Virus record (IMG/VR): IMGVR_UViG_3300025889_012946
Location: 1 to 22,558 of that record
Length of the DNA: 22,558 nucleotides
Strand: one strand, 5' to 3'
Origin: a virus
A program made the position numbers and the translations under genes. Shown here piece by piece: positions 611-5,490 of the stretch (its first letter is position 1; every line of letters begins with the position of its first letter). The notes under the pieces were generated by a model. That model was not told the DNA's origin. It was given only the letters and a program-made list of their open reading frames with translations, and searched no databases.

Positions 611-1798
611 CTAGGCGGCGAGTGCGGGCTCCACCACGCGCCCCTGGTGGTACTTGATCCACTCAGGGACGATCCCGACGACCGAGCCGTCGTCGCCGAG
701 GCGCAGCTTGACGACCCACGCGCCGACCGCGGGTTGCAGGCCCAGCCTGACGAGCAGGTCGGTCTGCCACTCGAAGCAGCCGGCGAGCAGTGACGGCACG
801 CTCCGGTGCTCGAACCACCCGGCGACGTGGTAGTGCCCGTGGATCAGCAGCGCGGGCTTGCGGCCGGGTGGCAGGCCCTCGATGTAGCGCTGCGGCTTGT
901 AGCTGATCGCGTACCCGCCGCCGCCGCGGCCGTGCACCATCGTCGCGTGGGCGCCGTTCGGCAGCTCGACGCTCCCGTGGTACGCGCCGCAGTAGACGAA
1001 GTCACGGCGTCGGTGGCACACCGCCTGCACCGGGTCGGCACCGATCCTCCCGGCCTCCCCCTCGATGTCATGGTTGCCGGCGATGATGTAGGTCGTCATC
1101 CCGCTGATGCGCGGGTAGACCTCCACGGCGTAGTCGACCTGCTCCTTGTAGGTGTGCATCCCGGGGAGCAGTCCGTTGGCGACCTGGCCGCGATAGATGC
1201 CGACGCCAGCGACGAGATCGCCGGCGTGCAGGACCGTGTCGATCCCGCGCGCCTCGAACTCCGCGTAGGTCGTATGCAGCTCGTCGAGCGCCTGCTCGCG
1301 GCTGCCGATGTGCGTGTCGGACACGATGCCGAGCGTGATCTCGTCGCCGGAGATACGCAGGCGCGTCACGTTCACCGATGCCGGTGGGAGCTTGTTGAGA
1401 CGGACGGTGCCCGGCTGATTCTCGTCCTCGTCAACCCGGAAGCCCTCTTCCTGCAAGCGACCGATGACCTCGCGTGCGCGTCGTGGCGAGACGTCCATCG
1501 CATCCGCAAGCGACTCGATGGTGACCGATTCCTTGCTCCGGTCCAGGAAGTCGCGCGCCATGTCGAGCATGTGATCGAGGCCGGCGTCGGTGTTCTGCAC
1601 GATGGCCGGAACCAGCGGCAGGTCGAGCCGCTTCGTCCAGATCCCCAGCGTGCGCTCGGAGACTCCGGTCGCACGCGACACTGCCGCAAGCGTGCCGTGC
1701 TTGGCGAGCATCTCGCTGAGCTTGTCCCGGTCGCGGTAGTACGGCACCTCGCGCTCGGACTGCGATGGCGGCGGAAGGTCCGGCGCATCCTCGCGCAA
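611..1798 (-). CDS. Helix-turn-helix metallophosphoesterase (calcineurin-like)
   Basis: A binuclear-metal phosphoesterase fused to DNA-binding domains. With the TTG start at 1798 the protein is 395 aa. Residues 23-62 form a helix-turn-helix (TLAAVSRATGVSERTLGIW), residues about 88-138 look like a winged helix (SLADAMDVSPRRAREVIGRL), and residues 155-360 carry the phosphoesterase motifs in order: SDTH (D161, H163), GD (D194), GNHD (N242, H243), VHG (H289) and GHYH (H322, H324). All expected metal ligands are present. The family includes nucleases and phosphatases; the attached DNA-binding domains suggest a nucleic-acid substrate, which is inference. The start is uncertain: the frame stays open upstream to about 1996 and encodes a second helix-turn-helix, yet no ATG, GTG or TTG occurs there. 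It follows the holin gene directly. Confidence 0.85.
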   Translation of the reverse strand: MREDAPDLPPPSQSEREVPYYRDRDKLSEMLAKHGTLAAVSRATGVSERTLGIWTKRLDLPLVPAIVQNTDAGLDHMLDMARDFLDRSKESVTIESLADAMDVSPRRAREVIGRLQEEGFRVDEDENQPGTVRLNKLPPASVNVTRLRISGDEITLGIVSDTHIGSREQALDELHTTYAEFEARGIDTVLHAGDLVAGVGIYRGQVANGLLPGMHTYKEQVDYAVEVYPRISGMTTYIIAGNHDIEGEAGRIGADPVQAVCHRRRDFVYCGAYHGSVELPNGAHATMVHGRGGGGYAISYKPQRYIEGLPPGRKPALLIHGHYHVAGWFEHRSVPSLLAGCFEWQTDLLVRLGLQPAVGAWVVKLRLGDDGSVVGIVPEWIKYHQGRVVEPALAA

Positions 1799-1996
1799 CG
1801 ACGACCCGCCGGCGGTACTGCGCGAGAGCGGGATGCCGTGCTTGCGCGCCCAGTGGTGAAGCGTGGACGGTGTGACGTCACCGCTCGCGGTGGCGACGGC
1901 GACGCATGATCCGTGCTCGCGTATCGCCTCCAGGAGAAGGTCACGATCCCACCACCACGGCTGGTTGGCAGCGATCGGACGACCTACTGCTGGACG
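1799..1996 (-). other. In-frame upstream extension coding a second helix-turn-helix copy
   Basis: The phosphoesterase frame is open upstream of its TTG start as far as a TGA at 1999-1997. Translated, residues such as DRDLLLEAIREHG and VTPSTLHHWARKHGIPL align with DRDKLSEMLAKHG and VSERTLGIWTKRLDLPL of the annotated N-terminus, 72 codons downstream. This looks like a genuine tandem domain duplication rather than a chance ORF. No ATG, GTG or TTG lies in frame in this stretch; only rarer candidates such as ATC at 1975 or CTG at 1933 are available. Either initiation is non-canonical, the true start has been lost by a base error or frameshift near the holin stop, or this is a decayed N-terminus. 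Confidence 0.6.
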
Positions 1997-2238
1997 TCAG
2001 TGGGCGCGGCCGGAAGCTCGTCCACGAGCTCCGACGAGATCACGGGAACCGGCTCCGCGTACATCGTCTGCACCATCGCCTGCATCTGCCGGCCGAGAAC
2101 GACGACGACGCCGAGCACCGTCGCGCACGTCGCTCCCCATTGCCAGGGGAGAGTGCTGAACACCGGAGCCAACGCGGCCGCGACTGCGCCGATGAGCCCG
2201 ATCCATGATGCGGGCCCGAACTTGACGGACTGATTCAC
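1984..2238 (-). CDS. Holin candidate, two membrane segments
   Basis: A small membrane protein of 84 aa, probably forming the lysis pore or triggering lysis in the inner membrane. The chosen start is GTG at 2238, with an AAAGGA ribosome-binding sequence about nine bases upstream; a longer reading into the endolysin gene gives an Arg-rich N-terminus and is rejected. Two hydrophobic segments are visible, about residues 12-30 (WIGLIGAVAAALAPVF) and 36-50 (ATCATVLGVVVVLG), separated by a short loop containing Pro and Trp. The C-terminal 30 residues are polar, acidic and Pro-rich. Its place immediately after the endolysin gene supports a holin role. The sequence alone does not identify the holin family. 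Confidence 0.7.
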   Translation of the reverse strand: MNQSVKFGPASWIGLIGAVAAALAPVFSTLPWQWGATCATVLGVVVVLGRQMQAMVQTMYAEPVPVISSELVDELPAAPTDVQQ

Positions 2239-3336: not shown

Positions 3337-4917
3337 TCAGCCTCCGAGGGTGTCGGCGAGAGCGAGGTCGCCGGTAGCGGTGTCATCTGTCGTGGTGCCG
3401 GCGCGCTGGACGTCCGCGAGCGACGCGACAGCGGCAGCGACCTCGAGCAGCTGCACATCCGTCAGTCGCGCGTCGCGCAGTCCGATCAGCGCAAGCGCCA
3501 CGTCTGCGGACGCGACATCGAAGGAGCGAAGGCCGTCGCCGGTAATCAGCAGCGCGCGAGGCCGGTCAGTCGCGGCGATCGAGGCGGAGTCGGCATCGAC
3601 GACCGGCGCAAGCGCGCGTTGTATGTCCTGGTCGTCGGCGCTGGCGATGATCTGCTCGAGCAGCGCGGCCTGCGCGATCGCGGCTTCGCCGAGCGAGACC
3701 CGCCCGGGGACGTACACCTCGGGGACCGAGCCGATGGCCTGTGCGACGGCGGCGATGGCCGCCAGCGTGATCGAGAGCGCCGGAGCGGCCGCGGCAGCGG
3801 TCGCCGGTGCCACTGGCGCCGGGACACGGGTCTCCGGCGTGACCTGGGGAGCGGTCGCTGCGGCGGTCGCCGGCGCGGACACTGACTCGACCGTGAGGTC
3901 GATCTGCGCGACCGGAGCAGCCGCGGACGCTGTCGCCGGGCACGCTGACGCAGTGAGCGTGATGTCGTTCTCGATCGCCGGGGACGTGACCGCCGCGGAC
4001 GCGGAGGATGCCGGTGCCGGCATCGACACGACAGGCGCAGGTGCGGAGATGTCCGCCGAACTCGCGCCCGCGACGCCGGGGAGAACATGCGACGGGACAG
4101 GCGCCGCCACGGCGCCGGTCGCAGCGGCCGCGGCGGGAGCGACGACCAGCGAGGCATCCGGGCCCGTCGCGGCTGCCGTTGCCATGCCAGCAGGTGCGGC
4201 GACCGACACGACAAGGCCGGGCACGGTGCTCGCGGCACCTGCGTCGGCGGCCGGTGCGGTGATCTCCACGTCGCCGCCGGTGCCCACGACCGGCGCCTGG
4301 GCGCTTGCCGTTGCCTCCGCCGGCGTGGCCGCAACGGTCAGGTCGATGTCCACCGCGGGAGCAGTGGTGGCGGCCTCGGCCGCAGCCGCAGGCGGTGCAG
4401 CCGCGATGGCGACGCCTGGTGTGCCCCCAGCGCCAGTCGCACCGGCGGACGTCGCGCTGACCGTCACCTCGAGCGTCGGCGACGTGGCATCCGCCTGCGC
4501 TGATGCGACCGCCGCCGCCAGCGTGACGGAGAGCGCCGGCGCGGTTGCGTCGGCGTCCGCCTGACCGGACGGTGATGCGACCGAGACCACAAGCACGGGC
4601 GTCGCGCAGTCGGCGCTCGCCGTCGCAGCCGGCACGACGAGCGTGGTGTCCATGCTCAGCGCCGGAGCGGTCGCGGCAGCGGTCGCCGGTGCGGGGGTGC
4701 CCGACACCGACACCGACACGCTGAGCGCCGGAGCGGTCGCGGCAGCGGTCGCGTCGGCTGCGACGCCGGTGACCGACACCGACACGCTGAGCGTCGGTGC
4801 CGTCGCGGCAGCGGTCGCGTCGGCTGCGACGCCGGTGATGTTGACGTCCGCACCCTGGTCGCCGGGGTACAGCGTCGAGCCGGGATAGACCGACCCGGAC
4901 GGATAGAGCAGCGCCAT
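3337..4917 (-). CDS. Repeat-rich tail fibre/virion protein, 526 aa
   Basis: A low-complexity Ala/Thr/Ser/Val/Pro-rich protein. After a short N-terminus with three YP motifs (YPSGSVYPGSTLYPGD), residues about 28-390 consist of roughly 17 degenerate repeats of 19 to 24 residues. The first copies are nearly identical and follow the pattern ADATAAATAPALSVSVSV; later copies drift but keep an Ala-rich half, a Pro and an alternating Val/Ser half. Residues about 390-526 are non-repetitive, helical and acidic. Repeats of alternating beta-strand and small residues would suit a fibrous stalk. Position among tail-tip genes and before the lysis genes supports a virion fibre. Receptor specificity cannot be inferred. 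Ser/Thr density makes it a possible glycosylation target. Confidence 0.7.
   Translation of the reverse strand: MALLYPSGSVYPGSTLYPGDQGADVNITGVAADATAAATAPTLSVSVSVTGVAADATAAATAPALSVSVSVSGTPAPATAAATAPALSMDTTLVVPAATASADCATPVLVVSVASPSGQADADATAPALSVTLAAAVASAQADATSPTLEVTVSATSAGATGAGGTPGVAIAAAPPAAAAEAATTAPAVDIDLTVAATPAEATASAQAPVVGTGGDVEITAPAADAGAASTVPGLVVSVAAPAGMATAAATGPDASLVVAPAAAAATGAVAAPVPSHVLPGVAGASSADISAPAPVVSMPAPASSASAAVTSPAIENDITLTASACPATASAAAPVAQIDLTVESVSAPATAAATAPQVTPETRVPAPVAPATAAAAAPALSITLAAIAAVAQAIGSVPEVYVPGRVSLGEAAIAQAALLEQIIASADDQDIQRALAPVVDADSASIAATDRPRALLITGDGLRSFDVASADVALALIGLRDARLTDVQLLEVAAAVASLADVQRAGTTTDDTATGDLALADTLGG
4655..4852 (-). repeat. Three tandem 66-bp repeats in the fibre gene
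   Basis: Three in-frame units with a 66-base period begin at about 4655, 4721 and 4787 and encode the first 22-residue protein repeats. The last two units differ at only a few positions. A partly conserved, more distant copy is visible near 3772-3810. The near identity at DNA level, compared with strong drift in the later units, suggests recent duplication at the N-terminal side of the protein. Confidence 0.8.
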
Positions 4918-4920
4918 CGT

Positions 4921-5490
4921 CTAGTCCGGCTGCTTGATGATGACGGCCTGCTGGAAGGTGTAGTTGTTGTTCACGTTGCCCGAGACCAGCGTGAGCTCGA
5001 TCAGGTTGCTCGCCGTGGTGTTGATCGAGGTCTGCGCGGTGTTCGCCACCACCGGGCTCGTCGCCGAGTGCAGGTTGAAGATCGAGCCGTACATCGTCCC
5101 GCCCGAGCCGGTGGTGCGGATGGTGACCATCGCGTCAATCACGCCGGCGACGGCCGTGGCGGCGCCGGGGATGCTGGCCGTGGCGGCGATGGTGCCGGTC
5201 AGGGTCGTGGTGCCGATCCTGACGCGCGCGGTGGCCGTGGCGCCGTTGGTGCCGGCGCGCGTGTAGTAGGCGCGAATCCGCCACACGTCGCCGGCCGCGT
5301 AGGTGTCGGCCGGGATCGAATACGAGATGACCTGCGTCTCGGTGTTGGCGATGGCGCTCGTGGCCGTTGTGCGGACGGCGACCTGCTTGGCCGCGAGGCT
5401 GATGCCGGTCTCCATCACGTCGAGGTTGGCCGCGTTGATCGGCGTGCTCGTGCTGGGCGAGTCCGCCCAGTTGACCTTGACGTAGGTCAT
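4921..5490 (-). CDS. Minor tail/fibre-type virion protein, 189 aa
   Basis: The N-terminus contains TPINAANLDVMETGI, a motif widely seen at the start of phage tail-fibre and upper-baseplate proteins. The remainder is beta-rich, Thr/Ala/Ile-rich, and resembles a jelly-roll-like virion domain (WRIRAYYTRAGTNGATATAR, LTLVSGNVNNNYTFQQAV). The start ATG at 5490 shares a base with the stop of the upstream gene (TGATG), giving tight coupling; a 14-residue longer reading would overlap that gene and is rejected. It lies next to the repeat-rich fibre protein, so both may form part of the same tail appendage. Family-level assignment is reasonable; exact location in the virion is inference. Confidence 0.7.
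   Translation of the reverse strand: MTYVKVNWADSPSTSTPINAANLDVMETGISLAAKQVAVRTTATSAIANTETQVISYSIPADTYAAGDVWRIRAYYTRAGTNGATATARVRIGTTTLTGTIAATASIPGAATAVAGVIDAMVTIRTTGSGGTMYGSIFNLHSATSPVVANTAQTSINTTASNLIELTLVSGNVNNNYTFQQAVIIKQPD

Follow-up and report, generated by a model that had tools for sequence, protein, structure and literature searches.

To our knowledge, natural AUC and AUA start codons have rarely been documented. A reconstruction of start-codon switches that covered more than 61,000 ancestral AUG starts recovered only one change to AUU (PMC5622118). In Streptomyces, the start codon is ATC for infC and GTC for sigR, such starts being used in high-GC bacteria and repressed by IF3 (PMC5472188). 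The phosphoesterase gene described here lies on the minus strand of a 22.5 kb IMG/VR virus contig, the whole stretch of DNA analysed and referred to below as the window. It resembles infC, the gene for IF3 itself (AUU in E. coli, ATC in Streptomyces), in the proposed use of an Ile codon one base away from ATG as a start, of a kind that annotation often misses (PMC5472188); it differs in being a phage gene beside a holin-like gene, whereas infC belongs to the host and is regulated by the protein it encodes. Like sigR, it sits in a high-GC genome and would have a weak, non-canonical start (PMC5472188), but a very extensive ribosome-binding site precedes sigR and a weak one precedes the ATC of the window. 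By analogy with these two genes, we infer that IF3 may also control the window gene. The window (GC ~68%) carries a late-gene operon on its minus strand, and its large terminase shares ~25% identity with its counterparts in Streptomyces phages (phiC31 and TG1, for example), a distant kinship that makes an actinobacterial host plausible. We consider it likely that the gene starts at ATC 1975-1973, where ribosomes terminating at the end of the holin-like gene would re-initiate, and that it encodes a 454-residue protein.

Standard ORF callers place the start at TTG (1796..1798, minus strand), giving an ORF at 611-1798 whose frame remains open back to TGA 1999-1997. The codons after this TGA read CGT CCA GCA GTA GGT CGT CCG ATC GCT GCC AAC CAG CCG TGG TGG TGG and continue until TTG 1798-1796. 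An initial annotation of this DNA had remarked that no in-frame ATG, GTG or TTG occurs between the TGA and 1798, and our recheck of the frame found none either. The proposed full-length gene (611..1975, minus strand; 454 codons from ATC plus a stop) would encode two helix-turn-helix domains (HTH1 and HTH2), a winged HTH and a metallophosphoesterase domain, as indicated by the open frame, alignment with relatives and a structure model with a mean pLDDT of 84.5. It appears to be ~60 amino acids longer than in standard software annotation. In another frame of the minus strand there is a GTG at window position 1944, to which the three Trp codons (TGG TGG TGG) in HTH1 lend a strong Shine-Dalgarno (SD)-like sequence; the frame of 190 codons that it opens is probably spurious.

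Since the contig is metagenomic, a normal start might have been removed by a sequencing or assembly error, as the initial annotation had suggested for the junction. We have rejected this explanation, the probability of which we regard as negligible, because IMGVR_UViG_3300006802_000286, a contig from another metagenome (3300006802) with 3 differences from the window over 6865 aligned bases, has exactly the same junction sequence, and because two further lineages (L006 and L040) likewise lack a canonical start. Besides this near-identical contig, five close relatives (L006, L007, L008, L009 and L040) reach 76-83% in the phosphoesterase domain, and L091 and L092 are two further short loci of the L008 type. 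A scan for the phosphoesterase domain gave 80 loci, and a scan of genome contigs gave one distant match only; a nucleotide search of phage records and a protein search of plasmids returned no match, and a DNA pattern search for the PWW-DR motif added zero new contigs. The comparison of start sites covers four lineages and few contigs, all of them metagenomic.

Exact alignment of these four lineages revealed that the codon preceding Ala-x-x-x-PWW is ATC in the window (1973..1975, minus strand), ATA in L006, ATA in L040 and TTG in L007, L008, L009, L091 and L092; L013, which is more distant, likewise has TTG there, with a strong SD sequence in front. The homologues keep the position of the start and exchange it with the canonical TTG, and a conserved N-terminus exists without any usable ATG, GTG or TTG. 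The rare start (ATC) and the N-terminal truncation of the annotated protein, both put forward in the initial annotation, gain support from this alignment. In L006 and L040 the first ATG, GTG or TTG, a GTG, comes only halfway through the HTH, so that no canonical start there could yield the domain. Taken alone, the ATC of the window proves nothing, because ATC is frequent within genes too (4.3% of internal codons). Internal TTG codons amount to 0.1-0.3%. ATA is almost absent internally (3 of 6709 codons in the window, 0 of 1889 in L086, the locus of the L006 contig, and 0 of 3817 in L144, that of the L007 contig), yet it stands at this very position in two lineages; this points to ATA as a start, and its presence there is hard to explain otherwise. 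With ATC or ATA at one place in three lineages and TTG in the fourth, the locus offers a clean comparative case. TTG 1798 itself is not conserved, the aligned codon in close relatives being CTG, CTC or ATC, and it is probably an internal Leu codon.

The part of the protein that would be restored is a predicted DNA-binding domain. HTH1 (1826..1960, minus strand) is modelled as three helices with a pLDDT of ~88-92 and has a weak Pfam MerR match below the cut-off; HTH2 (1613..1744, minus strand; pLDDT ~80-85) matches Pfam MerR_1 / HTH_23; the third, winged HTH (1421..1582, minus strand) is supported by Pfam, alignment and model, and is conserved in relatives. Aligned as PWWWDRDLLLEAIREHGSCVAVATASGDVTPSTLHHWARKHGIPL and PYYRDRDKLSEMLAKHGTLAAVSRATGVSERTLGIWTKRLDLPL, HTH1 and HTH2 share 18 of 45 identities with one gap, and their alignment score of 84 lies far above those of shuffles (mean 9, sd 4.8, maximum 32, n=5000; z ~15.6). 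The hidden upstream HTH claimed in the initial annotation, in tandem with the annotated one at a spacing of 72 codons, is confirmed; what has to be revised is which copy is conserved. All close relatives reaching far enough upstream have a single HTH, then the winged HTH, then the phosphoesterase. Their HTH (PWWxDR-KLLAAIRQHGSAQAAAxAS-GEVS-PTLHxWARKxGIxLSRG) aligns with HTH1, while HTH2 lies opposite a gap in all of them. Hence the N-terminus covering the upstream segment, for which the initial annotation had recommended an alignment of homologues, is conserved in close relatives, and because their sole HTH aligns with HTH1 and not HTH2, HTH1 is, on this alignment, the ancestral copy and HTH2 an extra domain that within the close group only the window phage possesses. 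We have rejected HTH2 as a recent tandem duplicate of HTH1, since its distance to HTH1 is about the same as its distances to the HTHs of L006, L040, L011 and L013. ORF callers limited to ATG, GTG and TTG would cut away a conserved, predicted DNA-binding domain here, and the truncated annotation also conceals the gain of a second HTH by the window phage.

The upstream neighbour is a small membrane-protein gene (1984..2238, minus strand) with 59-66% identity to its relatives and a TAG stop at 1986-1984. We term it holin-like from its position behind an endolysin-like gene; its protein has zero Pfam matches and a PHROG match only at E 0.21. The proposed ATC lies 8 nt beyond this TAG and in a different frame. 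In every close lineage the phosphoesterase start falls between -2 and +9 nt from the holin stop, with a 2-nt overlap (ATAG) in L006; a start so near to the upstream stop throughout the close group, as in translationally coupled pairs, suggests re-initiation at the phosphoesterase start. SD-like sequences are good at both ATAs (ranking in the top 3.3% and 8.8% when compared with random places), weak at the ATC of the window (28th percentile), somewhat better at TTG 1798 (15th) and also weak in the TTG group. As both genes nearly touch in all lineages, a frameshift, which the initial annotation had allowed for, or stop readthrough might be thought to fuse the two frames. However, the holin-like gene of the window and of L006 terminates out of frame with the phosphoesterase, whereas in L007, L008, L009 and L040 its stop (TAA or TAG) is in frame with it, so that no one event would serve all lineages; the varying frame relation speaks against conserved frameshifting or readthrough, and the junction in the window (C CAG CAG TAG) contains no slippery heptamer. 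A fusion is thus highly improbable, and we have rejected it. Under the re-initiation that we favor, ribosomes ending the holin frame would resume just behind its stop by translational coupling, with initiator tRNA engaging the weak AUC codon as a start.

A scan with the holin alignment yielded a few more distant phages, which add no start sites because a different phosphoesterase follows the holin there. In L130, L138 and L139 (~3700-5000), which are more distant but have the same holin, a small GLLD-type protein and another calcineurin-like phosphoesterase lie behind it, and the L130 contig carries the two types of phosphoesterase one after the other.

Between L006 and L040, HTH1 differs at 5 first, 6 second and 25 third codon positions (pN/pS 0.22); by this measure it is under purifying selection as protein between the two ATA lineages, which have no canonical start for it. 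The selection on the upstream frame by which the initial annotation would be judged is therefore evident between these two lineages, but the window branch gives a third-position excess of only p = 0.19 for HTH1 (p = 0.77 versus the winged HTH). This unproven selection accords with a recent loss of the HTH1 start in the window phage, with translation from TTG 1798, HTH2 having taken over and HTH1 surviving as a remnant; TTG 1798, a codon rare internally, stands where relatives have CTG, CTC or ATC, and has a slightly better SD sequence than ATC 1975. We nevertheless regard such a loss as unlikely, given that the frame is open throughout, that HTH1 is modelled with high confidence, that its pN/pS against relatives (0.54-0.60) is near that of the winged HTH (0.45-0.50), and that the ATA relatives get by with a codon just as unusual at the aligned place. 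Production of two forms, full-length from ATC 1975 and lacking HTH1 from TTG 1798, is a further reading, since either codon is a plausible place to initiate and has an entire HTH behind it; as the second site is found in zero relatives, we rate this still lower, as quite unlikely.

Initiation at ATC would give a product in which HTH1, HTH2 and the winged HTH precede a calcineurin-like phosphoesterase of Mre11/PolD-DP1-like fold, and all four domains are present in the model of 454 residues. The phosphoesterase domain (614..1366, minus strand) scores above the cut-off for Pfam Metallophos_2 (1.2e-10), retrieves PolD DP1 and Mre11 in Foldseek, and carries SDTH, HAGD, GNHD, MVHG and HGHYH, which supply the metal-ligand motifs of the calcineurin-like family (D-x-H, GD, GNHD, H and GHxH) in addition to its fold. 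PolD DP1 and Mre11/SbcD, calcineurin-like proteins of DNA metabolism, share this fold and its metal-binding motifs, but identity to the top solved structures is <=19%, scores lie far under NCBIfam cut-offs (48.6 bits versus 445 for the equivalog of DP1, the small subunit of PolD), and the window protein differs in its N-terminal HTHs. With this fold and the metal-binding motifs kept, the product is likely to be a DNA-directed nuclease or phosphatase. The only significant relative among phage records is ORF43 of the Halorubrum tailed virus BLv36 (28% identity over 62% of the protein), which however belongs to an archaeal virus and has no recognisable HTH1 in the alignment.

A weak start may hold the protein at a low level. 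It is tempting to speculate, if only tentatively, that a lineage of phages keeps AUC or AUA as a means of controlling a nuclease-like late gene, such that translation would need both re-initiation from the holin and host IF3, a potentially DNA-damaging protein would be kept low, and standard callers would hide N-termini of this kind. Elsewhere in the window, upstream of the endolysin region, 3337-4917 (minus strand) encodes a 526-residue Ala/Thr/Pro-rich protein of diverged repeats (ADATAAATAPALSVS...), some copies of which are still ~87% alike in DNA.
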